A stretch of DNA of 64,000 nt from Caldifarciminota bacterium (GCA_025060695.1 JANXBH010000002.1:108826-172825); one strand, 5' to 3'. Counted from the first letter of the stretch, positions 761 through 59,163 are shown. Numbers and translations: made by a program. The notes: generated by a model from the letters alone, not told the origin.

Positions 761-770
761 TTTAAAATTT
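761..770 (+). promoter_or_regulatory. TTTAAAATTT start-proximal promoter motif of the ferredoxin gene
   Basis: TTTAAAATTT ends 7 nt before the ATG at 778, and there is no Shine-Dalgarno sequence between. The same motif and spacing recur before many unit-leading genes here. I read it as a -10-like element giving a leaderless transcript. Confidence 0.6.
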
Positions 771-777
771 TATTACT

Positions 778-1071
778 ATGGCATACGTAATAACACAACC
801 CTGCATAGGAACGAAGAGTGGAGAGTGTGTCCAAGTTTGTCCAGTAGACGCTATCCATCCAAGAAGAGATGAAAATTGGGATGAAACTACACAGCTATAT
901 ATAGACCCAAATACCTGTATAGAGTGTGGAGCTTGTGCTTCAGTATGCCCAGTAAGTGCAATATACCAAGAAAATGACGTTCCGGAAGAATGGAAACACT
1001 TCATAGAGAAAAATGCAGACTACTATAGAATGGATAAAGAAAGCTTTAAGGCTAAATGGAATTCACTATAA
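778..1071 (+). CDS. seven-iron (3Fe-4S/4Fe-4S) ferredoxin, Thermus type
   Basis: 97 aa soluble electron carrier. Seven cysteines are visible: C9, C17 and C21 in the first motif and C47, C50, C53 and C57 in the CIECGACASVCPV motif. The first motif has a long C-x7-C spacing (CIGTKSGECVQVC), as in Thermus and Azotobacter-type 7Fe ferredoxins. By family precedent C9/C17/C57 hold a 3Fe-4S cluster and C21/C47/C50/C53 a 4Fe-4S cluster. The C-terminal extension (EEWKHFIEKNADYY) is also usual. The last eight codons reappear in diverged form 410 bp downstream (see the relic at 1446). Its redox partner is not evident from neighbours. Confidence 0.93.
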   Translation: MAYVITQPCIGTKSGECVQVCPVDAIHPRRDENWDETTQLYIDPNTCIECGACASVCPVSAIYQENDVPEEWKHFIEKNADYYRMDKESFKAKWNSL

Positions 1072-1089
1072 AAACTTGGGGGTTATGCT

Positions 1090-1413
1090 ATGTTTCAGGT
1101 TAAGTCTGAGGAAAAAGAAGTTTACATAAGAAAGTTATCACTTGAAAAAAAAGTCTCAAATGATGACTCTTCTACATATGAAATTGATTATACTATAAAT
1201 CTTCTCTTTGCTCCTACTCGTTTTATAAAACCTGAAACCTATGATCCTGAAGGTGATGTAGGAAAATCTTTTACTGCCCGTCCTTTCCATTTTTCGAATA
1301 CTTTGGTTGATATAAATTTGGTACGAGCAATAACGAAAGTTCTATCACAAAATGTGGAACACAGATTTTCCTCTGTTAAAAAAGATGATAAACCAAGAAT
1401 AATTTTGTTTTAA
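1090..1413 (+). CDS. hypothetical 107-aa protein
   Basis: ATG is preceded by a GGGGG-type Shine-Dalgarno sequence 7 nt upstream. The protein is soluble and charged, with no signal peptide, Cys or recognisable motif. It lies between the intact ferredoxin end and the duplicated ferredoxin tail at 1446-1481. It may therefore have arrived with whatever event duplicated that tail. I do not recognise the family. Confidence 0.5.
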   Translation: MFQVKSEEKEVYIRKLSLEKKVSNDDSSTYEIDYTINLLFAPTRFIKPETYDPEGDVGKSFTARPFHFSNTLVDINLVRAITKVLSQNVEHRFSSVKKDDKPRIILF

Positions 1414-1445
1414 AGATTTTAAATTTACTAATACTTTATTGTTAT

Positions 1446-1481
1446 AAAACTTTGCTGAAGGCTAAGTGGGGTTCGCTATAG
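1446..1481 (+). pseudogene. relic of a ferredoxin gene 3' end
   Basis: Read in one frame this encodes KTLLKAKWGSL followed by TAG. That parallels the C-terminus of the ferredoxin at 778-1071 (KESFKAKWNSL, TAA). Over 23 bases (1048-1070 against 1458-1480) there are only four differences, all A-to-G, and two of them are synonymous. It is immediately followed by a terminator hairpin that shares the last G of the stop codon. This is what an original ferredoxin gene end would look like. The rest of the second ferredoxin copy is missing. Confidence 0.6.
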
Positions 1482-3199
1482 GGACCATTGGTCCCTTTTT
1501 ACTAAGTATTTCTGACTATTACTATTTTTCAAGAGCATTAAGTCATTATGGATTAAATTTTTCTGACTTAGGATATTTTAAAGATATTTCTGTTGAAACC
1601 AATTTAAAACCCCTTGGCTTTTTAAATTTCCTAAAAAGTCCCTTTAAAATTGATACGTTTGGTTATAAAATATTAAGCAATATTCCTATCATAACTCTTG
1701 AAACTATTATAAATGAGTATTATGACATTAAGCTAATCGGACCTTATTCCATTGTATTTGATTTGAATGATACGCTCTTTAATGAATTTGAAATGAATAT
1801 TAAATATCATCTTCAAAAAATTTTAAAAACTGCAGAAATATATTCTTTTTACATGGAACACTCAAACATAACCTTAGATGAGATTGAAACTTTGTTAAAA
1901 TTTGCAAAAGAGAATATAATGGAAGATAGTTCTAATATATCGAAAGACAGTGTCGTAAGTTATTTAAAAAAAATAAATTTTAGGGATTTTTTTTATGCAC
2001 ATTTGACACTATTAAATACATTTCTTGAGCTAAGAGACGTAATAAAGGTATTAAAGGGAAAAAGTATAAATTTGGTATATGAAACGCAGTTTGGAAAAGT
2101 TATAATTACTGATAGCCTTTTGCCTTCAGACAGCGATTTTATATATATAAATACAAGAGGAAGTCAAAAATATAGTAAAATATGCAATAGTAATATTAGA
2201 ATTTGTGCATTTTTTGACCTTGAGGGAAACGATATTTATAACTTCGATAGTTTTTCTGTTCATACCGAGTATGGCTTAGTATTTTTCTATGAAGATGGAG
2301 GTGATGATATTTACAAATGTTTAGGATTTTGTCTTTCTTCTTCAATTTTAGGACTTAGTTATTTTGAGGATAATAGTGGAAATGACTACTACGATAGTGG
2401 CAAGTTTTCAATTTCTGCAAGCTATTATGGAATTTCAGTATTTTTAGATAAAACGGGGGATGATATTTATAGGGCTGTAAACTCATCTTTGGGTTTTAGT
2501 AGTATATGGGGAATTAGTGTATTTAAGGATGAAAGTGGAAATGATAGTTATTATCTTGGTAGATATTTTGAACATAAGCCACTTTGGAAAAACGAATATT
2601 TTGGCTTAGGTCTTGGTTTCTCCATAGGCATGAGAGAAGATATAGCTGGTGGTATTTCTGTTTTTGTAGATTATGATGGAAATGACCTTTACAGCTGTGG
2701 GACATATTGTTTAGGCAGTGCATACTGGTATTCAACGGGAATATTTATAGATTTAAAGGGTAATGATAGGTATATTGGAGTTCAATATGGTATTGGTTCA
2801 GGCATTCATATTGGTATAGGTGGTTTTTTTGATTTAGAAGGAAATGATATATATATATTTAGAGCTGGACCTTCTATTGGAAGTGCACATGATTTTGGAA
2901 CGGGTTTTTTTTACGATAAACTTGGAGATGATATTTACTATGTTTCAGGCGGTATTGGAAATAGTATAGCAAACGGTCTTGGTATATTTATTGATTCTCA
3001 TGGTAATGATATTTACAATTTTACTGAATTTAACCTAAGTTGCGGTGCAAGTCAAAAGTTAGATAAGCAAAGAGAATTTCTTGGACTTGGTATATTTATA
3101 GATAAAGAAGGTAATGATAGTTATCCAACAGTTTCTAAATGTAAAAATAATTCTACTTGGAAAGTTGGTGATATTGGCATTGGTTTTGATGGTTTTTAA
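1466..3199 (+). CDS. beta-repeat protein with about 11 copies of a G-[ND]-D-x-Y repeat; start uncertain
   Basis: 577 codons from GTG at 1466. Residues 1-245 form a non-repetitive, mostly helical region. Residues from about 249 to the end hold about 11 repeats of 22-45 aa with the core F-x-D-x-x-G-N/D-D-x-Y (for example FFDLEGNDIY, VFLDKTGDDIY, IFIDSHGNDIY). Such short Gly/Asp/Tyr repeats suggest a beta-helix or solenoid, perhaps on the cell surface, but no signal peptide is visible. The GTG lies inside the ferredoxin-tail relic, and a terminator falls 15 nt later. The next in-frame candidates are TTG at 1763 and ATG at 1793. The gene may therefore be 5'-truncated or rearranged. The 3' end overlaps the convergent yjbQ stop. 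Function unknown. Confidence 0.6.
   Translation: MGFAIGTIGPFLLSISDYYYFSRALSHYGLNFSDLGYFKDISVETNLKPLGFLNFLKSPFKIDTFGYKILSNIPIITLETIINEYYDIKLIGPYSIVFDLNDTLFNEFEMNIKYHLQKILKTAEIYSFYMEHSNITLDEIETLLKFAKENIMEDSSNISKDSVVSYLKKINFRDFFYAHLTLLNTFLELRDVIKVLKGKSINLVYETQFGKVIITDSLLPSDSDFIYINTRGSQKYSKICNSNIRICAFFDLEGNDIYNFDSFSVHTEYGLVFFYEDGGDDIYKCLGFCLSSSILGLSYFEDNSGNDYYDSGKFSISASYYGISVFLDKTGDDIYRAVNSSLGFSSIWGISVFKDESGNDSYYLGRYFEHKPLWKNEYFGLGLGFSIGMREDIAGGISVFVDYDGNDLYSCGTYCLGSAYWYSTGIFIDLKGNDRYIGVQYGIGSGIHIGIGGFFDLEGNDIYIFRAGPSIGSAHDFGTGFFYDKLGDDIYYVSGGIGNSIANGLGIFIDSHGNDIYNFTEFNLSCGASQKLDKQREFLGLGIFIDKEGNDSYPTVSKCKNNSTWKVGDIGIGFDGF
1481..1500 (+). terminator. Rho-independent terminator hairpin
   Basis: A perfect 6-bp stem GGGACC/GGTCCC with loop ATT is followed by TTTTT. 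It directly abuts the ferredoxin-tail relic, so it probably ended that ancestral gene. It now lies within the first codons of the long reading frame that follows. Confidence 0.75.
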
Positions 3200-3588
3200 A
3201 CCACTTTAATCCATACTTCTCTTTGTCTTGGTCCATCAAATTCACAAAATAAAATCCCTTGCCACCTTCCAAGCTTTATTTCTCCATTCTCTAATATAAG
3301 CATTATGCTTGAACCTATTAAACTTGATTTTATATGAGCATCCGCGTTCCCCTCCAAGTGTTTATAATTCCCATTTCTTGGAACAAGCTTATTTAGAAAG
3401 TCCAAAATATCTTCTTTAACAGAAGGGTCATAATTCTCATTTATAGTTATTCCCGCAGTAGTATGTGGAACATATAGTATTAAAATTCCATCCTTTTTTT
3501 CTAATGTTTTTATAGAAGATGAAACTATGTCCGTAATATCAACAATTTGATATTTCTGATAAGTCTTTATATTAATCTTTAACATCAC
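3196..3588 (-). CDS. yjbQ: YjbQ/UPF0047 family protein
   Basis: 130 aa, the usual length of the YjbQ (UPF0047) family, whose members have weak thiamine-phosphate synthase activity and a jelly-roll-like trimer fold. Diagnostic blocks are LYVPHTTAGITINENYDPSV, the HLEGNADAHIKSSLIGSS block and the C-terminal GRWQGILFCEFDGPRQREV, with the conserved His and Glu residues kept. It overlaps the dipeptidase-like gene upstream by 17 bp and is the last gene of a three-gene minus-strand unit (hslO - dipeptidase - yjbQ). Its cellular role is not known. Confidence 0.9.
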   Translation of the reverse strand: MMLKINIKTYQKYQIVDITDIVSSSIKTLEKKDGILILYVPHTTAGITINENYDPSVKEDILDFLNKLVPRNGNYKHLEGNADAHIKSSLIGSSIMLILENGEIKLGRWQGILFCEFDGPRQREVWIKVV

Positions 3589-4483
3589 TAAATTTTAATG
3601 CTCTTTTAAAAAAGCTATATGCGTTATTGTAGAAGAAATTGTTTACATATTCATCAGGTAAATATTTTTTTAGCTCTAAGTATAGATTTTTTAAATCATT
3701 TGGCTTACTTAAATTTTCTATCTTATGCTCTTGTGAAATTCCATAAAAATCACTTCCTATACATAAGGTATTTGGGTATTTTTCAATGAGTTTCGAAACA
3801 TACTTTGCTATGTCTGTCAGTGTTGCTTTTGAGAGAAATATATCCGCAAACGCTATACCAACGATACCATTTATCTTTGAAATTTCATAAATCATATCTT
3901 CACTAACATTTCTTTTTATATTAGAAATTTCTCTTATACCAGTATGCGATACGAAGATATTTTGTTTAAAGTTTTCTATTACATTGAAGAAAGTTCTATC
4001 GCTTGCATGCGAAAGGTCAATAGTCATATTTAAACTAATAGCTGTTTTGACTACATCATAGCCTAAATCAGTTAATCCATAGTCATTTTTACTATTCCAA
4101 TGAGGACAAATTAAATTATCCTTATTCCAAACAAGCCCTAAAACTTTTATTCCAAGTCTATTCATTATCCTAACTTCATAAGTACTTCTTACAAAATAAA
4201 GTCCCTCAACTGCTAATATTATATTTCCTTCATCAAACTCCTCTATACCTTTAATAATTTTCAAATTGAACTCTTTTTCTATTTCATATGCAATTTCAAT
4301 ACCTCTTAATGTATAAATTAGTGGCTCTTCCACGTCCAATATTTTATAAAAACCCCTAAAAGGGAATATAGCAAATACGAATTTATCTATATTTAAGTTC
4401 TTATATTCATTCAGAATACTTACGTTATTAGGATTGTCAATAATATAGTAAAGTAAGTCCTGATGCAAATCAAAAACTTTCAT
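3572..4483 (-). CDS. M19 (renal dipeptidase-like) family metallohydrolase
   Basis: 303 aa, about the family length (300-370). Family landmarks in order: DLHQDL near the N-terminus (zinc ligands H and D), AVEG (bridging Glu), the LTDLG block, DLSHAS and SHTGIR (His ligands) and IGSDFYG near the C-terminus. M19 enzymes cleave dipeptides or related N-acyl amino acids in a binuclear zinc site. No signal peptide is present, so a cytoplasmic dipeptidase is likely. The terminal motif reads SDFYG where most members have DFDG, so one acidic residue is replaced. The ATG overlaps the hslO stop by 4 bp, indicating translational coupling. Confidence 0.82.
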   Translation of the reverse strand: MKVFDLHQDLLYYIIDNPNNVSILNEYKNLNIDKFVFAIFPFRGFYKILDVEEPLIYTLRGIEIAYEIEKEFNLKIIKGIEEFDEGNIILAVEGLYFVRSTYEVRIMNRLGIKVLGLVWNKDNLICPHWNSKNDYGLTDLGYDVVKTAISLNMTIDLSHASDRTFFNVIENFKQNIFVSHTGIREISNIKRNVSEDMIYEISKINGIVGIAFADIFLSKATLTDIAKYVSKLIEKYPNTLCIGSDFYGISQEHKIENLSKPNDLKNLYLELKKYLPDEYVNNFFYNNAYSFFKRALKFSDVKD

Positions 4484-5343
4484 GAGGAAAGATTTTCATA
4501 AATCTGCACTATCTGAAATTTATTAAATATATAGCTCTTTCTGCAATACCTACATACAACCTCAATTTTATTATTTAGTTCAAATTCCTTAAGCATTTCT
4601 TCTTTTGGAATAAACGAAATCGCATCTTTTATACTACTTTCATTACACCAGCATTTATAGTATGCATAAGTTTGGTTGATAAAATTCCAACTTTTTGTAA
4701 TATTTGAAATTAAATCATATTCATCACTTTCTTCCTCTATTAGTTTCGTAATAGGCCCTATACTTTTTATTCTTTTCTCAATATCCAACAATTCACTCTC
4801 ACTTGTCCCCGGTCTTGCATATAGAAGAATACCTCCTGAGTTTTTTATAGAACCGTCTACATCCACTAATACTCCAAGTGATACCGCACACGGTAATTGT
4901 TCAGAACTATATAGAAAATAAGCTATATCCTCTGCAATTTCACCACTCACTATTTCTGAAATACTTTGATATATCTCATTTTCAAAATACCTATAAAAAT
5001 AGATTAAACCACCACCTACTACATCACTAACTGGCAACTTTTTATCTTTAATTTCATAGTTTGGATTGGGATTTCTTATGAAAGCCCTATAGTTCTGCTT
5101 CATATCTGTCTCAGTAGTAATTTCTGAAATTTCACCACTTGTTATAAATTGCATTACTAATCTTCTGACATTGGTATAGCTAAATGCATTTGACAGTAAA
5201 ACAAGTCCTGTCAATGCTCTCCCAAGCGCTGCGGAGGCAGGAGGATTCGTCTTGTGAATACTACAAGCTTCTTTAATTATATCTGTAGTTATAGTACTAA
5301 CTATTATAAAGCTTCCATACTTAACTTTTAAAACTTTAGCCAT
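4480..5343 (-). CDS. hslO: Hsp33 redox-regulated chaperone
   Basis: 287 aa from the chosen ATG. Hsp33 is a cytosolic holdase activated when its C-terminal zinc centre is oxidised. Visible marks are the N-terminal substrate-binding core (PPASAALGRALTG, VRYIDNG-equivalent region, GGLIYFYRY) and the C-terminal zinc cysteines CWC and CRYC separated by 32 residues. The frame extends to a TTG 15 nt upstream, but that TTG lies inside the TTTAAAATTT promoter motif. The ATG at 5343, 13 nt after the motif, is therefore preferred. It heads the unit hslO-dipeptidase-yjbQ. Confidence 0.92.
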   Translation of the reverse strand: MAKVLKVKYGSFIIVSTITTDIIKEACSIHKTNPPASAALGRALTGLVLLSNAFSYTNVRRLVMQFITSGEISEITTETDMKQNYRAFIRNPNPNYEIKDKKLPVSDVVGGGLIYFYRYFENEIYQSISEIVSGEIAEDIAYFLYSSEQLPCAVSLGVLVDVDGSIKNSGGILLYARPGTSESELLDIEKRIKSIGPITKLIEEESDEYDLISNITKSWNFINQTYAYYKCWCNESSIKDAISFIPKEEMLKEFELNNKIEVVCRYCRKSYIFNKFQIVQIYENLSS

Positions 5344-5356
5344 AAATAGTGTATTC

Positions 5357-5366
5357 AAATTTTAAA
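5357..5366 (-). promoter_or_regulatory. TTTAAAATTT promoter motif of hslO
   Basis: On the minus strand TTTAAAATTT ends 13 nt before the hslO ATG with no Shine-Dalgarno sequence. It overlaps the alternative TTG start, which argues against that start. Confidence 0.55.
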
Positions 5367-5421
5367 GTAATTCTTTACTTTTACACTATCTACCCCCCTC
5401 TTGATAATATCTTACCTTTGC

Positions 5422-5431
5422 CTTAAAATTT
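5422..5431 (+). promoter_or_regulatory. CTTAAAATTT promoter motif of prkA
   Basis: CTTAAAATTT lies 25 nt before the ATG at 5457, with GGAGGG at 5442-5447 in between. Here the same promoter motif is combined with a leader carrying a Shine-Dalgarno sequence. Confidence 0.5.
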
Positions 5432-5456
5432 AAAACTGAGTGGAGGGATGGAAAAA

Positions 5457-7292: not shown

Positions 7293-7669
7293 TAAAAAGC
7301 CTTGTTTTCTTAATTTTAACCTTTTCTTGCATCCCAAAATACAAGAATTTTAAAGTAATTCAAAAAGGAGAAATTAAAGTTTCTATTCTCACAGAAACAG
7401 GAAATATAAAAGTAGGAAACAATAAATTTCAAATAGTTGTAGAACCTAAAGAAAATATTATAAAAGAGGTTTTTTTATATATGCCACCTACGAATAGTAG
7501 CGATGAAAGTAGAATAGTCGCAAAATTTGAATATAAAAACTATGGAATTTACGAAGGTTCTATAGATGTAAATAAAAAGGGTATTTGGGATCTTGTAATT
7601 ATATTAAACGATGGCTCAAGTATATCGGAAAACATTGCCATAGGCATGCATGATGAATTTGGCTTTTAG
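7289..7669 (+). CDS. small lipoprotein with possible YtkA-like domain
   Basis: 126 aa starting at GTG within the GTGA overlap with the prkA stop. The N-terminus is a lipoprotein signal (hydrophobic stretch then LTFSC, lipid Cys at 14). The rest is a beta-rich domain with VFLYMPPTNSSD and the end GIWDLVIILNDGSS. This resembles the immunoglobulin-like YtkA/FixH-related domain, an assignment I hold only loosely. Tight coupling to prkA is the most informative clue. Confidence 0.6.
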   Translation: MIKSLVFLILTFSCIPKYKNFKVIQKGEIKVSILTETGNIKVGNNKFQIVVEPKENIIKEVFLYMPPTNSSDESRIVAKFEYKNYGIYEGSIDVNKKGIWDLVIILNDGSSISENIAIGMHDEFGF

Positions 7670-8249: not shown

Positions 8250-8250
8250 C

Positions 8251-8260
8251 TTTAAAATTT
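8251..8260 (+). promoter_or_regulatory. TTTAAAATTT promoter motif of the nicotinamidase-like/ligA unit
   Basis: The motif ends 4 nt before the ATG at 8265 with no Shine-Dalgarno sequence. This is among the shortest spacings seen here and is consistent with a leaderless mRNA. Confidence 0.6.
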
Positions 8261-8264
8261 TTAC

Positions 8265-11540
<3,276 letters not shown>

Positions 11541-13538: not shown

Positions 13539-13545
13539 AGTTTGA

Positions 13546-13555
13546 AAATTTTAAA
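13546..13555 (-). promoter_or_regulatory. TTTAAAATTT promoter motif of tal
   Basis: On the minus strand the motif ends 7 nt before the tal ATG with no Shine-Dalgarno sequence. It lies in the 22-bp gap between tal and the rhodanese gene upstream. Confidence 0.6.
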
Positions 13556-13560
13556 GTGTT

Positions 13561-16080: not shown

Positions 16081-16085
16081 TTTCA

Positions 16086-16113
16086 AAATTTTAAAGTTTA
16101 TGCTGTAAAATTT
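16086..16113. promoter_or_regulatory. back-to-back divergent promoter motifs
   Basis: Minus-strand TTTAAAATTT (16086-16095) ends 5 nt from the kinase ATG. Plus-strand TGTAAAATTT (16104-16113) ends 5 nt from the ATG at 16119. The arms AAATTTTA and TAAAATTT form an 8-bp inverted repeat. There is no Shine-Dalgarno sequence on either side. Confidence 0.6.
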
Positions 16114-16118
16114 TAGTT

Positions 16119-17897
16119 ATGATTTACATTTTATTATCTAATATAATATTTTCTGAAAGTTTTGAAGGGGGAAGTTTTCCTCCAACTGGATGGGTAAAAC
16201 TAGATCTTGGAACTTCAAATAGCGATGGATGGCAAAGAACTACTTCAAAAAAGAGAAGTGGTAACTATTCTGCATATGTAAGCTATCAGCCTTCTGCCAA
16301 TACAAAAAACGAATGGCTTATAACACCTGCTATTAATCTATCAAATTATACAAAAGCATTTTTAATATTTTATGAAGATGAGAATTGGTGGTTCAGTTAT
16401 GGAGGAGTACATAGGATAAGAATCTCTACAACTTCTCAAACTGATACTAATTCTTTCGTAATAGTAAGAGAAATGACACCTGCAAATCATTCAATAACAG
16501 GTTTTTCAGGTGATCCTGTAATGGTTGATATTTCCTCCTTTGTGGGAAATTCTACTGTATATATAGCATTTCAATATCAGGGTAAAGATAGAGATGACTG
16601 GTTCATAGACGATGTTAGAGTTTTTGTGCCATATCATTATGATGTAAAACCTGTTAAGATTCTAAATCCAAAACCATTTGTAGGTTCTAATATTATACTT
16701 CCAAATGTGCAAATAATGAATTATGGTGTAAATAATCTAACGAATATTCCAGTAAGACTTATAATAAGGGACTTCAATAATAATATAGTATATAATGAAA
16801 TTAAATATGTTAACTCACTTAATTCCTTTGAGTATAGTAATGTTTCATTCCCTCAATTTACAGGTTTAAACAATAAAATCTATAAACTTGAAGTTATAAC
16901 GGAACTTCAAAATGACCAAGACAGAAGTAATGATACAATAAGAATGAACGCATATACTTACATAACTTCACAAAAACCACTATTTGAGAGATTTACTAAC
17001 ACCTCATGTGGTCCCTGTGGTCCTGCAGACAACTACATGCACCAGATATACCAAACCTATCTATATAATGTGGGAATAGTGGTTTATCATACCTGGTGGC
17101 CTTCAAGTTCCGATCCAATGTATGTCTATAATACTTCTCAAAACCAGCAAAGGACCAATTACTATAGTGTAAATGCAGTACCATGGGCTTGGATAAATGG
17201 TACAGTAAATGCATCATCCAGTTATACTCAATGGATGAACTTAGTAAATAGTGAAATGAACTATAGAAAAACTCCCATACTATTTGCGTTTGATAATACA
17301 AATAGTTATGTAAGCTTGAGTGGAAATGGTCAAATAGCTTTTCATATAAACCAAGTAGGTGAAATGGAAAGTGGAAACTATAAAATAAGAATAGCAATAC
17401 TTGAAGATAGTATTTACTACAGTGCTGCAAATGGAACACAATTTCATCCCATGACATTTAGGCATTTAATTGAGGATAACTTTTCACCGTCTACAAACCA
17501 GAATATATACAAAACTTATACATTTACATTTAGACCTGATAAAGCACCACCTGATAATATTGATAGTGTAAATGTAGATAAGATGGTGGCTGTAGTATTT
17601 ATCCAAAGAGATGACGATAAGAGCGTATGGGCAGTTGATGTGTATAAGTTCGTAAATGTAAATGTTTCCGAAGATAAAAAAGATAGTAATTTTTATTTAA
17701 AGGGTAATAGTTTCATACTTATAGGTAATAATTTAGCAAATTTAAAAATATATGATGTTTCAGGTAAACTATTAATAGATAGGAGTTTTAATCTAAAGGG
17801 TAAAATTGAGTTTATTCCAAAGCTTAAAAGAGGGCTATATATTTATAAAGCTGAAATCGGGAGTAAAACATGGGAAGGAAAATTCTTATATTATTAG
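16119..17897 (+). CDS. secreted protein: jelly-roll domain, Omp28-like thioredoxin domain and C-terminal sorting domain
   Basis: 592 aa. A short signal peptide precedes SFEGGSFPPTGW, the start of a cleaved-adhesin/MAM-like beta-sandwich (about 13-170). A CARDB-like Ig domain follows (about 175-275). Then comes an Omp28-related thioredoxin-like domain with C297-G-P-C300 (FTNTSCGPCGP). Residues of about 520-592 form a sorting-type domain (LKIYDVSGKLL, GLYIYKAEI) like those of type IX secretion cargo. The last 28 bp overlap the next Omp28-like gene. It is probably an exported or surface protein with thiol chemistry. No type IX machinery is visible in the window. Confidence 0.82.
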   Translation: MIYILLSNIIFSESFEGGSFPPTGWVKLDLGTSNSDGWQRTTSKKRSGNYSAYVSYQPSANTKNEWLITPAINLSNYTKAFLIFYEDENWWFSYGGVHRIRISTTSQTDTNSFVIVREMTPANHSITGFSGDPVMVDISSFVGNSTVYIAFQYQGKDRDDWFIDDVRVFVPYHYDVKPVKILNPKPFVGSNIILPNVQIMNYGVNNLTNIPVRLIIRDFNNNIVYNEIKYVNSLNSFEYSNVSFPQFTGLNNKIYKLEVITELQNDQDRSNDTIRMNAYTYITSQKPLFERFTNTSCGPCGPADNYMHQIYQTYLYNVGIVVYHTWWPSSSDPMYVYNTSQNQQRTNYYSVNAVPWAWINGTVNASSSYTQWMNLVNSEMNYRKTPILFAFDNTNSYVSLSGNGQIAFHINQVGEMESGNYKIRIAILEDSIYYSAANGTQFHPMTFRHLIEDNFSPSTNQNIYKTYTFTFRPDKAPPDNIDSVNVDKMVAVVFIQRDDDKSVWAVDVYKFVNVNVSEDKKDSNFYLKGNSFILIGNNLANLKIYDVSGKLLIDRSFNLKGKIEFIPKLKRGLYIYKAEIGSKTWEGKFLYY

Positions 17898-20492: not shown

Positions 20493-20502
20493 TTTAAAAT
20501 TT
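20493..20502 (+). promoter_or_regulatory. TTTAAAATTT promoter motif
   Basis: Ends 9 nt before ATG 20512 and 3 nt before an in-frame TTG at 20506; no Shine-Dalgarno sequence. Confidence 0.55.
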
Positions 20503-21510: not shown

Positions 21511-21520
21511 TTTAAAATTT
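21511..21520 (+). promoter_or_regulatory. TTTAAAATTT promoter motif of proS
   Basis: Ends 6 nt before the proS ATG; no Shine-Dalgarno sequence. Confidence 0.6.
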
Positions 21521-24246: not shown

Positions 24247-24278
24247 TTTAAAATTTTTTTCGTTGTTTAAACAGGAGG
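24247..24278 (+). promoter_or_regulatory. promoter motif plus Shine-Dalgarno leader of the ba3 oxidase operon
   Basis: TTTAAAATTT at 24247-24256 lies 29 nt before the ATG, and AGGAGG at 24273-24278 is 7 nt before it. Unlike most unit heads here, this operon has a true leader with a strong ribosome site. Confidence 0.6.
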
Positions 24279-33564: not shown

Positions 33565-33574
33565 AAATTTTAAA
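33565..33574 (-). promoter_or_regulatory. TTTAAAATTT promoter motif of the TrmH-family gene
   Basis: Minus-strand motif ending 7 nt before the TTG start; no Shine-Dalgarno sequence. Confidence 0.55.
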
Positions 33575-33579: not shown

Positions 33580-34077
33580 CTAAATAATAACTATTTTTCC
33601 TTCAGTACCTACAATAATTCCGGCTTTATTTTCTAAATAAAGTTTTCCAGCTAAAAGGCAAATTATAGCATCTTTCTCATCCTTGATTAAATTTTGTTTC
33701 TCTAAACTATAACCAAGACCATTTATAAATTCAAAAAAATGCCCATTAAAAGCAGATGGAAATGTTTCAAAAACCAAAATACCATGCATTTCTAAAATAT
33801 TCTTAATGCTAATTCCTCTCAGTGCAAGTTCTTTCATATGTTTAAAAGTTATAGGCAGAACATTTATTCTCCTTTTCTTTAAGTAAATATCAATATCCCT
33901 AAAGTGTTTGTTTTTTCTTGGAAGTGAAAGAGGAGCATCTATTAGGACTATACTAAAGTTTTTCGAAAAATTAATAATTTCTTCATCATGAAACAGAGAT
34001 TTCAACCTTATTGTCTTGTTATCAAAGTATGCTAAATAAGAGTATCTCTTTACCGAAAGGTCTATACCAAGCACCAC
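33580..34077 (-). CDS. DUF429 family predicted RNase H-fold protein
   Basis: 165 aa. GIDLSVKRYSYLAYFDN at the N-terminus, VLIDAPLSLPR, and VFETFPSAFNG followed by KDEKDAIICLLAGKLYLE with late acidic residues are the DUF429 landmarks, a family predicted to have an RNase H-like nuclease fold. Starts at GTG (two tandem GTGs), 4 nt after a promoter motif. Monocistronic. Biological role unknown. Confidence 0.78.
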   Translation of the reverse strand: MVLGIDLSVKRYSYLAYFDNKTIRLKSLFHDEEIINFSKNFSIVLIDAPLSLPRKNKHFRDIDIYLKKRRINVLPITFKHMKELALRGISIKNILEMHGILVFETFPSAFNGHFFEFINGLGYSLEKQNLIKDEKDAIICLLAGKLYLENKAGIIVGTEGKIVII

Positions 34078-34260: not shown

Positions 34261-34270
34261 TTTAAAATTT
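34261..34270 (+). promoter_or_regulatory. TTTAAAATTT promoter motif of dnaX
   Basis: Ends 4 nt before the GTG start of dnaX; no Shine-Dalgarno sequence. Confidence 0.6.
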
Positions 34271-37096: not shown

Positions 37097-37128
37097 AAAT
37101 TTTAAAGTTAGTTTTGGCTTTAAAATTT
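37097..37128. promoter_or_regulatory. back-to-back divergent promoter motifs, perfect 11-bp inverted repeat
   Basis: AAATTTTAAAG (37097-37107) and CTTTAAAATTT (37118-37128) are exact reverse complements with a 10-nt spacer. The left arm ends 5 nt from the lipoprotein ATG on the minus strand. The right arm ends 7 nt from ATG 37136. Confidence 0.65.
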
Positions 37129-38140: not shown

Positions 38141-39123
38141 TGCGGTGTGTATATTTAGTAAATGGTAAAATAGTTATAAAGGATGTAGAAATTCCGAAAT
38201 TAGAAGATGGGGATATACTAATAAAGGTAAAATATGCACTAACTGATGGTACTGACTTAAAGACATATTTAAGAGGTCATCATATAATTAAGGATGGACC
38301 ATTTGGACATGAATATAGCGGTATAGTTGTTGAAAGTAGAAGCGAAAAATTTAAAGTAGGAGATGAAGTTTTTGGTTTAAATAGTGCATATTGTGGAAAT
38401 TGTAAATACTGTAAAGAAAGCAGGGAAAATTTATGTATAAGTTTAAAGTTTTTATTTGGAGCATATGCGGAATATCTCAAAATTCCAAAAGAAATAGTCA
38501 ATAAAAATGTATTTATAAAACCAAAAGAAATTAGCTTTAAAGTCGCTCCAATAATTGAGCCTCTTTCCTGTGTATTTAATGGAATTGAAAAATTAAACTT
38601 AAAAGGTAATGAAAATATCTTGATACTCGGAAGCGGTTCTATTGCTATTATGTTCTTCTTAGCTTTATCAGAAAACCATAATGTAAAAATACACTCAAGG
38701 AGCAAGGATAGACTAAAATTAATTAAGGATAAATTACTATATGAGCAAATTGAAAAGTCATTTATGAAAGAATACAAAGACTTTGATTATAGTATAGTAA
38801 TAGATACAACTGCAAGCTTTGATTTAGTTAATGAAATTCTAAAAAATCCAAGAAGGGGCTCCAAAATTCTATTATTCTCAGGTATGGAAAGCGAGAAATT
38901 TTTAACATTTGAACAAAGTTATTTTCACTACAACGAAATTGATATTATCACATCATTTCACCACAAACCTACTTCCACTAAAAAAGCCTACGAATATTTA
39001 AGAAGAAATCATATGATATTAGAAAATATTATTACTACTGAAGTTGAACTATCGGACATAGAAAAAGCATTTTTCCTAATGAAAGAAAGAAAAGCTTTGA
39101 AAGTCGCTATTAGTGTGCTTTAA
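38140..39123 (+). CDS. zinc-dependent medium-chain alcohol dehydrogenase-like enzyme
   Basis: 327 aa, starting at GTG that overlaps the preceding TAG. Structural zinc cysteines [15 protein letters not shown], catalytic-zinc residues near GHEYSGIV and EPLSC, and a shortened Rossmann motif [11 protein letters not shown]. The nucleotide loop is not the strict GxGxxG. It belongs with the sorbitol/threonine dehydrogenase-type MDR enzymes. Substrate not predictable. Its stop lies within the promoter motif of the ribosomal operon. Confidence 0.82.
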
Positions 39124-39128
39124 AATTA
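39119..39128 (+). promoter_or_regulatory. promoter motif of the ribosomal protein operon
   Basis: TTTAAAATTA overlaps the preceding stop codon and ends 9 nt before the rpmJ ATG. Confidence 0.5.
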
Positions 39129-39137: not shown

Positions 39138-39251
39138 ATGAAAGTAAGAGCTTCTATAAAAAAAAGATGTGATAAGTGCAAAATAATAAGAAGAAGAGGT
39201 AAAGTAATGATTATTTGTGAAAATTCAAAACATAATCAGAGACAGGGGTAA
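39138..39251 (+). CDS. rpmJ: 50S ribosomal protein L36
   Basis: 37 aa: [20 protein letters not shown] and on to QRQG. Zinc ligands C11, C14, C27 and H32 are all present, so this is the zinc-binding form. It immediately precedes rpsM, the standard order in the alpha operon. infA, map and secY, often upstream, are missing here. Confidence 0.96.
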
Positions 39252-39630: not shown

Positions 39631-39635
39631 TACTA

Positions 39636-40639: not shown

Positions 40640-40648
40640 GAGGTAATT

Positions 40649-41632
40649 ATGAGTTTTGTGAATTTTTTATATCCAAAAGGTTTTTATGTAGACGAAATTA
40701 GTAATGACTATATAAAAATAGTAATTCCATATCTTGAAAAGGGATACGGTATTACAATTGGAAATGCTCTAAGAAGAATTCTTCTTTCTTCAATTGAGGG
40801 ATATGCTGTTGTTGGAGTTTACATTGAAGGTGTCGTTCATGAATTTTCATCAATTGATGGAGTTTTAGAAGATGTCCCATATATTTTATTGAATCTAAAG
40901 AAAGTAAGATTTAAAATTGATGAGAATTTAATTACATTTCCTGCAAGGGTAAGTATTAACTTTCAAGGTCCAGGTGAAATAAGAGCTGACGCAATTAAAA
41001 CATATTCAGGTATAGATATTGTAAATAGAGACCAGTTTATAGCAACTGTTACAACAGAAAGGAATTTAAATATTGACATATATATAGATAAAGGTATTGG
41101 TTTTGTACCAAAAGAAGAGTACCCTGAAAATTACAAAGATTTGTTTAGTTTTGGAACAATATTCGTAGATGGTAATTTCTCACCAATTGAAAAAGTAAAC
41201 TGGTCAGTTGAAAAGATGAGATACGAAGCATACATGGACAAAGATAAGCTTACTTTAGAAATATGGACAAATGGGACGGTAAATCCACTGAACATATATA
41301 AAAAAGCTCTTGAAATCTTAGAGAAACATATTTCACTACTAAAGAACGAGTTAAGAAAGCAAGAAGAATTTGAATATACTTCTATAGAGGAATTTAATAA
41401 GAGAATAGAGTTAGTAAAATCTAAACCTATTACTGACTTACCTCTATCTCCAAAAGTAATAGAGTTATTAAAATCTAAAAAAATAGAAACTATTGGAGAA
41501 CTTATAACATATGCGGAAGAAGAAGTAGGTGATTGGTTTAATGAAGCAGGATTACCCCAACGAGATTTTGAAGACTTAAGAAATAAGGTATATGCTTTAT
41601 CTTTAAAATTTTCTAGTAAAGCAAGGGGTTAA
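40649..41632 (+). CDS. rpoA: RNA polymerase alpha subunit
   Basis: 327 aa. Alpha-NTD with GYGITIGNALRRILLSSIEGYAV is complete, and an alpha-CTD follows a linker (about 255 onward; LPLSPKVIELLKSKKIETIGELI, then FEDLRNKVYALSLKF). AGGAGG is 6 nt upstream. Position between rpsD and rplQ is the conserved order. Confidence 0.98.
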   Translation: MSFVNFLYPKGFYVDEISNDYIKIVIPYLEKGYGITIGNALRRILLSSIEGYAVVGVYIEGVVHEFSSIDGVLEDVPYILLNLKKVRFKIDENLITFPARVSINFQGPGEIRADAIKTYSGIDIVNRDQFIATVTTERNLNIDIYIDKGIGFVPKEEYPENYKDLFSFGTIFVDGNFSPIEKVNWSVEKMRYEAYMDKDKLTLEIWTNGTVNPLNIYKKALEILEKHISLLKNELRKQEEFEYTSIEEFNKRIELVKSKPITDLPLSPKVIELLKSKKIETIGELITYAEEEVGDWFNEAGLPQRDFEDLRNKVYALSLKFSSKARG

Positions 41633-41634
41633 AT

Positions 41635-45982: not shown

Positions 45983-45983
45983 C

Positions 45984-45993
45984 TTTAAAATTT
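45984..45993 (+). promoter_or_regulatory. TTTAAAATTT promoter motif of lipB
   Basis: Ends 6 nt before the TTG start of lipB; no Shine-Dalgarno sequence. Confidence 0.6.
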
Positions 45994-45999
45994 TAGAAA

Positions 46000-47228: not shown

Positions 47229-47232
47229 AGTT

Positions 47233-48315: not shown

Positions 48316-48339
48316 AAAAGCTAATTAATTTCCAAAATT

Positions 48340-49041: not shown

Positions 49042-49053
49042 AGTTTTTAAATG

Positions 49054-49961: not shown

Positions 49962-49972
49962 ACTTTCACCTC

Positions 49973-51377: not shown

Positions 51378-51383
51378 AATTGA

Positions 51384-51416
51384 AAATTTTAAAGCATAGA
51401 AAATACTTTAAAATTT
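51384..51416. promoter_or_regulatory. back-to-back divergent promoter motifs, perfect 11-bp inverted repeat
   Basis: AAATTTTAAAG (51384-51394) and CTTTAAAATTT (51406-51416) are exact reverse complements with an 11-nt spacer. They end 6 nt from the ATG of the 115-aa gene and 5 nt from the hemW ATG. No Shine-Dalgarno sequence on either side. Confidence 0.65.
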
Positions 51417-51421
51417 ATAAA

Positions 51422-52513
51422 ATGAAAGGGTTTTATATTCATATTCCATTTTGCAAAGTGAAATGTTTATATTGCGACTTTTATAAGATAATACCTAAAA
51501 GTAGTTTTGAAATTGATAACTTTTTAAGGGTTTTAAGTATGGAAATTCATGAAAACAGTTGCTATTACAATACTATATTCATAGGTGGTGGAACTCCGAA
51601 TATTTTAGATAGGAATAAACTAATTGAACTTTTTGAAGTTATAGTTAAAAATATAAAGCTTTATGAAAATTACGAATGGACAATAGAGTTAAATCCAGAG
51701 CTTGTAAATTTAGATAACTTAGTAATTTTTAAAGATTATGGAATAAATAGATTGAGTCTTGGCATTCAAAGTCTGGATGACTATGAACTTAAATTTATGG
51801 GAAGATTACATAGAAAAAGGGATGTATTTAAAAAGATAGACTTAATTGAAAGACTTGGTTTTGAAAACGTAAATGTAGATATAATATTTGGTGGATATTT
51901 TCAAGATGTTGGTAAATTCAGAAAAACTCTATACGAAATAGTAAACTTTCCAATAACTCATATTTCTACATATTTACTTACTATTGAAGATGGAACGCCA
52001 TTTAAAAAGTTGAATATAAAACTAAAAGATGAAGATACTATTGAGGAAATGTTTAAGATGAAGGAGGAGATATTATATGAGCATGGATTTTATAGATATG
52101 AAATCTCAAACTATGCAAAAAAAGGTTTTCAATGTAAGCATAATTTAATTTATTGGAAAAGAGAAAGCTATATTGGTGTCGGTCCCTCCGCTGCTTCCTT
52201 TATAAAGCCAAATATAAGGTATAAAAATGTAGAAAATTTAGGTCTTTACTTGGAAGACTATAAAAAGTATAGAGAATATGAGTTTTTGAATGATGAGCAA
52301 ATATTGTTAGAGAAAATATACCTTTCACTAAGACTTGATGAAGGATTAGAATTGCAAGATATTAGTATAGTCTCGGATTTAACTGAATTCTTTAACATAT
52401 ATGGAAATAGAATAAAGCCTAATATAAAAGGGATTATGGTTTTAGATAGATTAGCTATTGAAATATTTCAAAGGATAAATAGTAGAGAAACTTTAAAATT
52501 ATCAAGCTTATGA
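51422..52513 (+). CDS. hemW: HemW-like radical SAM protein
   Basis: 363 aa from ATG 51422. A longer frame runs through the promoter and is rejected. [17 protein letters not shown] carries the radical-SAM cysteines C11, C15 and C18. [22 protein letters not shown] and GVGPSAASF follow. HemW proteins are haem chaperones related to coproporphyrinogen dehydrogenase; true HemN activity is less likely at this size. Overlaps gyrA by 4 bp. Confidence 0.92.
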
Positions 52514-54897: not shown

Positions 54898-54899
54898 GA

Positions 54900-55298
54900 A
54901 TGATAAGGAGAATTTTTATAGTTTTATTTTTTTTGATAAGTTGTCGTGTTGGAGATCCACCTGAGAAAGTTGTAGAAAACTATCTAAGTGCTCTTGAAAA
55001 GGGAGACTATAAAAAGGCTTATGGCTTAATAGATAGAATCTCAAGAAATTACGTTAGTGAGAAAGATTTTAGAGAATATTGGGAAAAGCAGTTTAGTGAA
55101 TGGGGTAAGCCCGATAGTCATGAGGTTTATGCTATTAAGCGAGAAGGAGACACTATGCGAGTTTATTTTAGATGGTATTTTGATAGAGGGAATTTTGAAG
55201 ACTTAGTAATGAGACTAACTAAGAATGTAAATCAAGGTGTATACGAATGGAGAATAAAATTCTATAAATATAGAATTGTAGAGAAAAAGAAAAAATGA
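54900..55298 (+). CDS. small lipoprotein, NTF2-like (DUF4878-type)
   Basis: 132 aa. Lipobox FLISC (Cys 15), then PPEKVVENYLSALEKGDYKKAYGLID, the usual start of an NTF2-like cone fold as in DUF4878. Basic C-terminus. Two bp after gyrA and 4-bp overlap with carbamate kinase. Confidence 0.7.
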   Translation: MIRRIFIVLFFLISCRVGDPPEKVVENYLSALEKGDYKKAYGLIDRISRNYVSEKDFREYWEKQFSEWGKPDSHEVYAIKREGDTMRVYFRWYFDRGNFEDLVMRLTKNVNQGVYEWRIKFYKYRIVEKKKK

Positions 55299-56212
55299 GA
55301 GTAGTAATAGCACTTGGAGGAAATGCCCTTGTAAGAAAAAATGAACCATTTAATACAGAAACTCATGACATAAATTCACATCTTGCTATAAAAAGTATTT
55401 CAAAGATTATTGAAAATAACGAAATTGTAATTACACATGGTAATGGACCACAAGTAGGAGAGGAATTTTTTAGAAATGTTTTTACAATTGGTAAGGTATT
55501 TACTATGAGCTTAGATTACCTAAATGCACAAACTCAAGGATGGATAGGATACTTATTGGAAAAGCACATTAGAAATGAAACAACTAAAAAAGTTGCAACC
55601 TTAGTTACACTTGTAAGAATTGACCCAAATGATGAAGCTTTTTTAGAACCTACGAAATTTATTGGAAGGTTTTTTGATGAAAACGAAATGAAGGAATATT
55701 CCTTAAAATATGGTTGGAAGTTCAAAAAAGATAGCAATAGAGGTTATAGAGTTGTAGTTCCTTCACCAAAGCCTAAGGAAATTTTAAATAAAGATGCCAT
55801 TTTAAATCTAATTGAAAATGGTTTTGTAGTAGTCGCACTTGGTGGGGGAGGTATTCCTGTAGTTTTAGAGCACGATAAGTATATTAGAGGTGTTGAAGCT
55901 GTCATAGATAAGGATTTAGCAAGTTCGCTACTTGCAATAGAAATTAATGCAGATTTATTTATGATTTTAACAGAAGTGGAAAAGGTATATTTAAATTATA
56001 ATAAGGAAAATCAAAAAGCGTTAGATGTAATAAATGTAAATCAATTAGAAAAATATTACTATGAAGGTCATTTTCCTGAGGGTAGTATGGGACCTAAAGT
56101 TTTAGCAGCAATGAATTTTGTAAAAGCTACAAAAAGAAAAGCAATAATTACATCACTTGATAAAGCACTTGATGGTTTTTATGAAAAAACTGGGACAATA
56201 GTAATTCCATGA
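55295..56212 (+). CDS. arcC: carbamate kinase
   Basis: 305 aa. RVVIALGGNALVRKNEP, VITHGNGPQVGEEF, the VPSPKPKEIL segment, ALGGGGIPVV and the EGSMGPKVLAAMNF end identify the enzyme. It makes ATP from carbamoyl phosphate. Arginine deiminase and ornithine carbamoyltransferase genes are absent, so its metabolic source here is unknown. Confidence 0.95.
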   Translation: MRVVIALGGNALVRKNEPFNTETHDINSHLAIKSISKIIENNEIVITHGNGPQVGEEFFRNVFTIGKVFTMSLDYLNAQTQGWIGYLLEKHIRNETTKKVATLVTLVRIDPNDEAFLEPTKFIGRFFDENEMKEYSLKYGWKFKKDSNRGYRVVVPSPKPKEILNKDAILNLIENGFVVVALGGGGIPVVLEHDKYIRGVEAVIDKDLASSLLAIEINADLFMILTEVEKVYLNYNKENQKALDVINVNQLEKYYYEGHFPEGSMGPKVLAAMNFVKATKRKAIITSLDKALDGFYEKTGTIVIP

Positions 56213-57288
56213 TAGATGTATTTGAGATAAAACTACACTACCCTATACCTATATTTTTATATACAAGCAACATAAAAAGCATTTACGAATTTTATAAATT
56301 TCTAAGTGAGTTAAAAAATGACACCTTAGTAATACCTTTAGAAAACTTTGAATTTATAACCATAGATGAACTTGACATTAGTAAAAGTTATAGATTAAAA
56401 AGCGTGCTTGTGCCAAAAGGAGAAATTTTAGTTAAGTTCTTTTTGGGACTTTTAGAAGGTTTAAATATTTACTATTACTTTCTTCCAATAGTAGAGATTA
56501 ACCCAATAGGAAAGAAGTTATTAAATAAAAAAAGAAAAAACAAAAATTGGTCTATTGAGTGGAAAAGCTTTTTAAGATATATTAACTTAATCAAGGATAG
56601 AATGATAAAATTTGAAGTTTTTGAAAATGAATTTTTATCCTTAATTATTTCAAATGTAAGTTATAAAGAACCTCTATTTTATGTGGGAGAACTTGTAAAA
56701 TTAAAAAATAAATCGGTATATGGAAGAATTGTTGAATTAAGAGAAAAATCAGTGTTTTTAGATAATGGTGAGTTTTACAATAAATCAGATTTAATTACCA
56801 TAAAAACTCAACCCGAAACGAATATAAAACATAGTGATAGTAAATTTATGATAGAATTCCTTTTGAAATACCTAAATAGAGAACTAATTAAATATGGTTT
56901 GGAACTTGTAAGGAAAGAGTTTGATTTTGAAAAAGTTGAAATTTCTAAAGACTGTTTAAAAGATTTTCTTAAGAACAAGCGAATAAATTTAGTCTTTAAA
57001 AGCGAAAAGATAAAAGAAAAGTTTTCAAACTTTAAATTCCCATTTATTTTAGATGAAAATTCAGAATATAGTTTTTTAATAGACAGTCCACGTTATTTAA
57101 AAAGTCCAAAAAAACTATATAAGGAAGTTTCTAAACTATTTTTAAATTTAGATCACAACTGCCCTCGTGTTTATTCAAAAATCCCCGTAAAATTGAAATT
57201 AAAAGATGGAAGATATCTCATTTCTAATAACTACAACTCAGCAATCTGCAATGAAGAAGAAATAAATATTGGAATTTTGGTGCTCTAA
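56209..57288 (+). CDS. hypothetical protein, 359 aa
   Basis: ATGA overlap with arcC makes it part of the hemW-gyrA unit. It is rich in Lys, Phe and Tyr, with no signal or membrane segment. A central KOW/SH3-like stretch LVKLKNKSVYGRIVELREKS (about 164-183) is the only local feature I can point to. The last 4 bp overlap the convergent regulator gene. Not recognised. Confidence 0.6.
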   Translation: MIDVFEIKLHYPIPIFLYTSNIKSIYEFYKFLSELKNDTLVIPLENFEFITIDELDISKSYRLKSVLVPKGEILVKFFLGLLEGLNIYYYFLPIVEINPIGKKLLNKKRKNKNWSIEWKSFLRYINLIKDRMIKFEVFENEFLSLIISNVSYKEPLFYVGELVKLKNKSVYGRIVELREKSVFLDNGEFYNKSDLITIKTQPETNIKHSDSKFMIEFLLKYLNRELIKYGLELVRKEFDFEKVEISKDCLKDFLKNKRINLVFKSEKIKEKFSNFKFPFILDENSEYSFLIDSPRYLKSPKKLYKEVSKLFLNLDHNCPRVYSKIPVKLKLKDGRYLISNNYNSAICNEEEINIGILVL

Positions 57289-59147
57289 AAGTCAAAGTTT
57301 CTTCTATAATATATCAAATACCTTATTTCACTGGCAAATGGAAAGACAGAGGATAGTTTTACAAAAGGCTCAAACCTTAACAATTTATAGGCTTTTCTCT
57401 TATCACCAAGTTTTATTAGTTTAAAAAATTCATTTAAATCAAAGAATACATCCTTATTTAAGACAACACTTTGATTTCCAATGGATATTAATCTAAAACC
57501 TACTTCGTGATTTATTCTATAAACAAAAGACTTAATATTTCTAAAGCCTTTTTGCTCCAACTCCTTAAAACTAACTTTTCTACCTTTCTCATTGAGCAAA
57601 TAGAACAACAACATATAAGCTCTATTAGCTCTCCTTGAACTTCTGATTTGAGTGTTATTAACATAAACTGTTTCTTTTCTTGAAAGAACATAAACCCTTA
57701 CCCTGTAATATCTCTTAATTCTAAGTAATCTAACAATATTTTTGAATTCTCTATATTTTCGTATGTGCTTTAAGGATTTATTTAAAAGTAGTGCATAAAC
57801 ATGTAAATTATAAATCAAACCATATTTATTCGCAACTTCAACAGCTTTCTTTATATTTCCCATTAAGAGGTATTTCAAAACTAACTCCTGCTTTCTATAA
57901 CTTGATAGAAGTGTATAGTCTTTATTATATATTGCCTTTAGTGTATTTGAAAACTTTGAGCCTTCATTCAATAAATCTCTAACTTTGTCATACTTACCTT
58001 CAATAGAATACTTCAACATTAATATAGTTTTAAATTCAGGTAAATAGAATTTATAGTTTTCTATTTCTTTTTCAATTTCATTCAATCTCGTATGGAAATT
58101 CACAAAATCCCCTTTTAAAAGCAACATAGAATTACAATTTAAACACTTGTATAATAATCTTGATTGAACGAACTTAGTATTTTCTATTAAGCTTTTTGCC
58201 TTTGAAATGAAAATATTATATTTACCTGAAATCATATCTAAGATTGCATCATCCTTTATACTCTTAGCAGTTTTTATATAACCTAAACCTACAAGTAATC
58301 TAAAAACTCCCTCTTTATCAATGTTTTTCTTTTTAATCATCTTAAAAGTTAAACTTTTTGCCAATTTTGGTTCTAATACTATAAATACATTAGCTAAATT
58401 TAAAATAAATTCATATTTAAGTTGAAATGGCAATTTTTCTATTTGAGACTTATGCTCATCGTATATTTTTAAGATTTCTTGAAACTTTCCATGTATTTTC
58501 AGGATGAAAATCTTTAAAAATAGTAAGTAGAAGTAATTGAGAGTATTTTTATTAGTTTTCATAGTTTCTTCAATCTTTTGTAAATAGATTATCTGTTCTT
58601 CAATTGTTAGCTTTTGAACTTGAATAAGATAGATAATTTTATATACAAAAGCATAGGTAGGTAAATAGTTATCAGGTATTTTTTCAAGTAAATAGTAGTT
58701 TTTACTATCTAACTTATGATATTTCAAAATTTCACTTGCTTCAGCTAATTTGTTTTCTTCTATAAGAATTTTAAATAGTTCAAAAAGTTCTCCTGACATA
58801 GTCTTAACTTTATAAAGATTGTAGTTTTGTAATTTATTTGAAATCGTTGAAGCAGCTATATTTAGATTATATTTTTCCTTTAGGTAAGTTTTTATTTGGT
58901 TTATTGTAAAAAATGGATTTTGCTCTTTTACTTTATAAATCAAGTATCCTAATTCATCAACTTCTAAGTATGGAACTATACTATTTTTAGCCTTTTTTTT
59001 AATGTGTAAAATAGTACTTACTGAGCATTTAAATTCTTTTGAAATATGCCTTATACTTTTATTCTGACATAAACTTTTGTAAACCATGTATTTTTTAAGA
59101 GGTGATAAGCTATTTTTTCTATATTTTGAAAACCTTGTTTTAGCCAT
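57285..59147 (-). CDS. large regulator: transposase-like paired HTH, helical repeats, C-terminal SARP/BTAD-like module
   Basis: 620 aa. Residues of about 14-56 (SPLKKYMVYKSLCQNKSIRH, then EFKCSVSTILHI) and 68-118 (NPFFTINQIKTYLKEKYNL, then ASTISNKLQNYNLYKVK) are two HTH units arranged as in the N-terminus of IS630/Tc1-type transposases. No transposase catalytic domain follows. Residues of about 115-470 are all-helical, TPR-like. From about 490 come a winged-helix-like domain (RVRVYVLSRKETVYVNNTQI, LLFYLLNEKGRKVSFKELEQ) and a short BTAD-like end (FFDLNEFFKLIKLGDKRKA). SARP proteins carry this module at the N-terminus, so the order is reversed. Probably a transcription regulator of the divergent exported gene. 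The domain reading is mine, by eye. Confidence 0.6.
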   Translation of the reverse strand: MAKTRFSKYRKNSLSPLKKYMVYKSLCQNKSIRHISKEFKCSVSTILHIKKKAKNSIVPYLEVDELGYLIYKVKEQNPFFTINQIKTYLKEKYNLNIAASTISNKLQNYNLYKVKTMSGELFELFKILIEENKLAEASEILKYHKLDSKNYYLLEKIPDNYLPTYAFVYKIIYLIQVQKLTIEEQIIYLQKIEETMKTNKNTLNYFYLLFLKIFILKIHGKFQEILKIYDEHKSQIEKLPFQLKYEFILNLANVFIVLEPKLAKSLTFKMIKKKNIDKEGVFRLLVGLGYIKTAKSIKDDAILDMISGKYNIFISKAKSLIENTKFVQSRLLYKCLNCNSMLLLKGDFVNFHTRLNEIEKEIENYKFYLPEFKTILMLKYSIEGKYDKVRDLLNEGSKFSNTLKAIYNKDYTLLSSYRKQELVLKYLLMGNIKKAVEVANKYGLIYNLHVYALLLNKSLKHIRKYREFKNIVRLLRIKRYYRVRVYVLSRKETVYVNNTQIRSSRRANRAYMLLFYLLNEKGRKVSFKELEQKGFRNIKSFVYRINHEVGFRLISIGNQSVVLNKDVFFDLNEFFKLIKLGDKRKAYKLLRFEPFVKLSSVFPFASEIRYLIYYRRNFDF

Positions 59148-59153
59148 TTTGAA

Positions 59154-59163
59154 AATTATAAAG
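59154..59163 (-). promoter_or_regulatory. promoter motif variant of the 620-aa regulator gene
   Basis: Minus-strand TTTATAATTT ends 6 nt before the regulator ATG; same spacing class as the other start-proximal motifs. Confidence 0.5.

Follow-up and report, generated by a model that had tools for sequence, protein, structure and literature searches.

A uniform −10 box next to the start codon suggests leaderless or near-leaderless mRNAs in a Caldifarciminota genome and its order

Background

Start-proximal −10 elements and leaderless genes are known from several bacterial lineages. In Deinococcus-Thermus about one third of genes have a −10 motif 6-7 bp ahead of them (PMC12340547), with leaderless genes amounting to 36-46% there and to 21-32% in Aquificae (table in PMC3160421), and the arrangement is also established in Actinobacteria (PMC3160421). 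Here we examine a box built around TAAAAT, with the consensus RCTTTAAAATTT, in a 64-kb stretch of a Caldifarciminota bacterium (GCA_025060695.1 JANXBH010000002.1:108826-172825; the window, by which we mean this whole stretch), in its genome and in related genomes. We find that the box is very probably the housekeeping promoter, that the start codon would lie at +1 to about +6 and that the mRNAs would consequently be leaderless or near-leaderless.

The closest described systems share parts of this arrangement. As here, Deinococcus-Thermus (PMC12340547; PMC3160421) has the −10 element 6-7 bp from the start without a Shine-Dalgarno (SD) sequence and uses SD sites for other genes, but its motif is a loose TANNNT (most commonly TACACT), whereas in this different lineage the box is rigid, carries C(−15) and is followed by an R-C-T-T initiator. 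In Actinobacteria (M. tuberculosis, PMC3898074; Streptomyces) a Pribnow TANNNT abutting the start likewise marks leaderless transcripts, although the hosts are GC-rich and the box degenerate, in contrast to the long, nearly invariant box of the AT-rich genome studied here. Extended −10 (TGn) promoters, strong in Lactococcus (PMC3160421), are similarly −35-independent and strengthened just upstream of the hexamer, but the TGn is absent here and replaced by C(−15) with TT at −14/−13. Bidirectional promoters with a shared −10 (PMC12825309) resemble the palindromic, overlapping boxes found between some divergent genes here, whereas most divergent pairs have two separate boxes, 30-47 bp from start to start. 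Since the share of genes with a start-proximal box (291/934, 31%) falls inside the published range, the phenomenon itself is known; what is new is the lineage, together with a uniform box of 12 bp, the lack of a −35, the extension by C(−15) and the R-C-T-T initiator. Our literature search found no earlier report of leaderless genes for this kind of lineage.

Data and scoring

The source genome is metagenome-assembled (1.5 Mb, 77 contigs, 30% GC); 944 kb of it was read, and both unit-leading and operon-internal genes were counted there. Relatives were sampled as 40-156 kb pieces from seven members of the order and as smaller samples from other families of the class, and statements on these outgroups are accordingly based on small samples. 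Gene starts are computational, from a dicodon model blind to any upstream motif, which does not handle genes as small as the 37-codon L36 gene. Spacing is the number of nucleotides between the last T of TAAAAT and the start codon, and an SD site is a match of 5 nt or more. The position, strand and frequency of the box, its relation to SD sites, its use at stable-RNA genes and its conservation were read off directly.

The box precedes unit-leading genes

Upon aligning the upstream regions of the window's genome on TAAAAT, we observed that the hexamer is preceded by C at −15 (84-89%), T at −14 (78-80%) and T at −13 (90-93%) and followed by T at −6 (97-98%) and −5 (92%). A de novo expectation-maximization search recovered CTTTAAAATT from unit-leading genes and AGGAGG from operon-internal genes. 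The box is start-proximal at 237 of 438 unit-leading genes, against a mean of 2.2 and a maximum of 8 in dinucleotide shuffles, and at 49 of 482 operon-internal genes, with a background of 0.135 hits per kb in coding DNA. Furthermore, among co-directional gene pairs 13-40 nt apart, the downstream gene carries the box in forward orientation in 39/100 and reversed in 3/100. In the window itself there are 24 exact 10-mers, 16 of which sit 4-15 nt ahead of same-orientation motif-blind starts (0.7% expected by chance per site). The motif is thus not equally common ahead of operon-internal genes or at AT-rich sites, two possibilities that the initial annotation had raised against its own proposal of widespread leaderless transcription.

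A signal arising by chance, or as an artefact of AT richness combined with the choice of start codons, deserves consideration in a genome of 30% GC, in whose window 153 one-mismatch copies occur where 98 are expected. The motif-blind starts, the shuffles and the coding background all contradict such an origin, as do the strand asymmetry in co-directional pairs and the persistence of the signature in GC-rich relatives (see below), so that its probability is negligible.

The spacing distribution breaks off sharply on its low side, at 5-6 nt, with almost no values below 5 and few above 11, and 6 and 7 are the commonest values, together about half of cases (148/291). This one-sidedness would follow from a start codon being unable to precede the transcription start. 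Additionally, the base immediately 5′ of the start codon is a pyrimidine in 66-89% of genes with the box and in 51% of the others. TTG and GTG genes follow the same spacing rule, as had been proposed from a few non-ATG starts in the window. As a separate observation, TTG starts are about twice as common in leaderless-type genes (39/291) as in box-less internal genes (25/423); leaderless mRNAs are usually said to prefer AUG, with which this excess contrasts.

Shine-Dalgarno sites and the translation apparatus

SD sites are found at 0/291 genes with the box 4-11 nt from the start, at 10/23 genes with the box 20-29 nt away and at 135/423 internal genes without a box. These counts agree with the earlier statements that unit-leading genes with the motif lack an SD sequence and that genes inside operons have AGGAGG-like sites. 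The 3′ tail of the 16S rRNA is a canonical anti-SD (GGATCACCTCCTTTTATAAGG; GGATCACCTCC), and genes for S1 and IF3 were found in the genome, so that an ordinary initiation apparatus exists. We searched the 16S rRNA for the complement of the box and found it absent; an SD-like ribosome site was rejected, given that the box does not pair with the 16S rRNA 3′ tail. On a side note, the DNA beside the 16S gene (loci L138 and L064) appears to differ from the 30% GC bulk, with the end of contig C7 (L064) at 36% GC, and is possibly foreign or misbinned.

Stable-RNA promoters and the position of +1

The same box stands ahead of most unit-leading tRNA genes and tmRNA (19 stable-RNA promoters scored) and ahead of the rRNA operon, of which a single one was found; it is therefore a transcription signal and not a translation signal. 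About three quarters of the 19 promoters have a purine (A or G) at the seventh position past the hexamer, followed by C in 63%, then T in 79% and T in 68%, which gives an R-C-T-T initiator. The form expected of a sigma-70 promoter, a TANNNT hexamer and, about 7 nt further on, a purine at +1, is thus found at rRNA, tRNA and mRNA genes alike, and the identical geometry at genes for tRNA, tmRNA and rRNA upholds the initial assignment of TAAAAT as a −10 element.

These results also bear on a reading in which the box is a translation-initiation element, that is an alternative ribosome-binding or S1-binding AU-rich site, with the promoter lying farther upstream. The box lies about as far from the start codon as an SD site does and the S1 and IF3 genes are compatible with such a role, but stable-RNA genes have no start codon and carry the identical box, operon-internal genes, where SD serves, rarely have it, the 16S rRNA lacks its complement and SD sites return once the box lies 20-29 nt upstream. 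We regard this reading as very unlikely.

With the box taken as a promoter, the R-C-T-T initiator places +1 at the textbook distance without recourse to the start codon, so that genes with a spacing of 6 would begin at the A of the AUG. A +1 at the seventh base would correspond to a leader of 0-1 nt at spacings 6-7 and of 2-5 nt at spacings 8-11, and genes with spacings of 9-10 read ACT-ATG or ACTT-ATG, that is with predicted leaders of 3-4 nt. The proposal that the transcription start coincides with the start codon can therefore be kept for about half of the genes (start codon at +1/+2, spacing 6-7), while the other half probably has a leader of 2-5 nt; "leaderless or near-leaderless" is the more exact term for what these sequences predict. 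A rival reading holds that initiation always occurs at the purine 7 nt past the hexamer and that the normal functional state is a leader of 2-5 nt (ACU-AUG). The ACT or ACTT found between box and start when the spacing is 9-10, also seen at tRNA genes, speaks for it, whereas the commonest spacings, 6 and 7, would put the start codon at +1/+2; we consider it a serious though somewhat doubtful possibility.

Absence of a −35 element and promoter packing

The statement that no clear −35 box is seen extends beyond the window. A TTG at a spacing of 16-18 bp occurs in 14/254 promoters of genome G000, against 12.5 in shuffles, and searching for TTG at spacers of 10-27 across the order gave no signal. 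In the same 254 promoters TG at −15/−14 is found only 4 times and C at −15 in 77%. Two known promoter classes were rejected: the extended −10 (TGn) class by this rarity of TG, and an archaeal TATA/BRE leaderless promoter by the position of the box, which ends 6-11 nt before the start and not about 26-30 nt.

Promoters are often nearly confined to a gap of 15-26 nt between stop and start codons, as at 8265, 13538, 20512, 21527, 31883, 33557 and 46000. Divergent gene pairs have two boxes back to back in 110/121 cases, with 15 bp between the predicted start sites in 12/110 (palindromic, overlapping boxes); the start-to-start distance is never 16-29 bp and mostly 30-47. The distances preferred between predicted divergent starts are 15, 30-31, 36-37 and 42-43 bp, which suggests a steric or helical rule; the window has three such divergent pairs, 16080/16119, 37091/37136 and 51377/51422.

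Conservation in the order and the primary sigma factor

When comparing TANAAT at spacings 5-10 with spacings 14-69, we observe an 8- to 25-fold enrichment in 8/8 order members, which range from 28 to 58% GC. In a genus of the order with 51% GC the box is still CTTTAAAATT, while the second family (55-58% GC) has the form C(−18)nnC(−15)nnTANAATA, and C(−15) is the extension common to the order (57-85%). Orthologous genes retain the arrangement (8/16 in genome G002, vs 0/16 at the control spacing). The unusually high conservation over 12 bp, and the frequent pairing of boxes in divergent regions, might also be expected of an operator or repeat bound by a regulator and not of a core promoter. Such an element is extremely improbable here: the box is directional, keeps a fixed distance to starts at genes of every function, rRNA and tRNA included, includes a −10 hexamer followed seven bases on by a purine at +1, and retains its TANAAT core in relatives of 51-58% GC while the flanks differ.

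Outside the order, TANAAT enrichment is weak or nil in the small samples of four families of the class (f3, f10, f7, f9), whereas family f4 shows a 7.8-fold start-proximal enrichment, with TTG at 16-18 bp in 4/18 promoters, and is possibly an intermediate state between promoter types. Some start-proximal −10 boxes of f4 genomes (for example L118-L122) are accompanied by a TTGACA-like −35 at 17 bp, and this family may have retained −35 boxes of the classical kind. The order, and possibly f4 as one further family, thus offer a natural test of the transition from SD-led to leaderless genes, the other tested families of the class having no comparable signal.

The genome encodes an RpoD in which regions 2 to 4 are complete. 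Among 37 genomes compared, the residue corresponding to E. coli Q446 is His in 11/11 order members examined and in none of the others (E. coli numbering, which we anchored on W433-W434), and the order's RpoD differs at several further sites of region 4.2. Ile occupies position 440, a known −12 contact, in the window's genome and Met in a sister species; in E. coli sigma-70, a change from T to C at −12 is suppressed by T440I and by Q437H (PMC2613000). That His446 reads the C:G pair at −15 is only a hypothesis, and a literature search found no known role for sigma-70 residue 446. These features suggest a −35-less, C(−15)-dependent sigma-70 recognition with residue 446 as the candidate. Tentatively, −35 recognition may have given way in the whole order to a C(−15)-extended −10 read by a re-specified primary sigma factor (His446 and the altered region 4.2, with T440I or T440M in the genus), giving a promoter of about 20 bp that fits between stop and start codons and leaves most unit-leading genes leaderless or nearly so.

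Predicted course of initiation and points against it

In the housekeeping-promoter reading, RCTTTAAAATTT would comprise the TAAAAT −10 element (−12 to −7), the conserved C(−15) and the T-tract at −6/−5, and the primary sigma factor RpoD would read it without a −35 box. RNA polymerase would initiate at the purine seven bases past the hexamer (R-C-T-T), so that in unit-leading protein genes the start codon would fall between +1 and about +6, with a leader of 0 to about 5 nt. Such leaderless or near-leaderless mRNAs would be translated without SD pairing, while operon-internal genes and genes with a farther-upstream promoter would use ordinary SD sites. The exact 5′ ends, the recognition by RpoD and the leaderless translation are predictions. 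Were they correct, promoters, transcription starts and true gene starts would be readable from sequence, which could correct start annotation across this uncultured order.

Four points weigh against this reading. The motif is missing within about 70 nt at 127/438 leading genes, some of which may be explained by miscalled starts. At spacings 8-11 a short leader of 2-5 nt is as likely as strict leaderlessness. Only two sigma-70-family genes matched the RpoD-model search, which was not exhaustive for other sigma factors. Finally, the organism is uncultured, and its 5′ ends and protein products are predicted here from sequence.

Sites in the window

All 19 sites of the initial annotation have TTTAAAATTT or a variant of one to two bases ahead of the start, mostly preceded by C. 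The distance of 4-13 nt given for them applies at each start; the weakest case is 5343, where a spacing of 15 from TAAAAT predicts a leader of about 8-9 nt. The motif-blind caller recovered 16/19 starts exactly; at 34077 it chose the neighbouring in-frame GTG 34074, at 51422 it placed the start 36 nt downstream (51458), and 39138, the gene of ribosomal protein L36, is absent from its output by size. The true start of gene 20512 may be the in-frame TTG 20506. Further start-proximal copies, at genes 193, 3585 and 52510, and leadered genes with both box and SD site, 5448, 24286, 41635 and 59273, are added here to the earlier list.

On the forward strand, boxes lie at 176-185 (gene 193, GTG start, spacing 9), at 761-770 (CTTTAAAATTT; gene 778, reading ACT ATG, no SD) and at 8251-8260, ahead of an isochorismatase-family gene (8265, spacing 6, no SD) whose ATG is the predicted +1. 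Others precede gene 20512, or TTG 20506 (20493-20502), the prolyl-tRNA synthetase gene 21527 (21511-21520), rpmJ (L36) at 39138 (39119-39128) and a lipoyl ligase-family gene with a TTG start (46000; box 45984-45993). The box at 34261-34270 serves dnaX (34275, GTG start, spacing 6), whose N-terminus agrees with the dnaX profile. On the reverse strand, 5357-5366 precedes the Hsp33 gene 5343 with its predicted short leader, 13546-13555 a transaldolase-family gene (13538) apparently without leader or SD, 31891-31900 gene 31883 (TTG start), 33565-33574 the SpoU methylase gene 33557 (TTG start) and 34082-34091 gene 34077/34074 (GTG start); variant boxes precede gene 3585 (3590-3599, ATTAAAATTT, spacing 6) and gene 59147 (59153-59162, TTTATAATTT).

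In the divergent pairs, the box at 16086-16095 (−) for gene 16080 faces away from a variant, TGTAAAATTT, at 16104-16113 (+) for gene 16119; 37097-37106 (−) and 37119-37128 (+) serve genes 37091 and 37136, and 51384-51393 (−) and 51407-51416 (+) gene 51377 and the hemW-like gene 51422. Leadered genes, all on the forward strand, comprise 5448 (box CTTAAAATTT at 5422-5431, then SD GGAGG), the cytochrome oxidase subunit I gene 24286 (box 24247-24256; gene 31 nt downstream, with AGGAGG), 41635 (box 41602-41611, 25 nt upstream) and 59273 (box TATAAAATTT at 59243-59252, spacing 22 nt, strong AGGAGG).

The box of gyrA (52510) at 52492-52501 (+) lies within the end of hemW, as an internal promoter. The window's GyrA has no insert, whereas in a GyrA of the same genus (L001:10001-13129) an intein-like insert, about 248 residues long (CLTGDALV...FVANGFINHN), adjoins the catalytic tyrosine (GDPPAAYRY^TEARL); the deposited contig has one in-frame stop. 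Finally, three proteins of the window (16119-17897, 59273-61000 and 63368-63982) match the T9SS type A sorting domain, two of them just under the curated cut-off, pointing to a lineage with type IX secretion.

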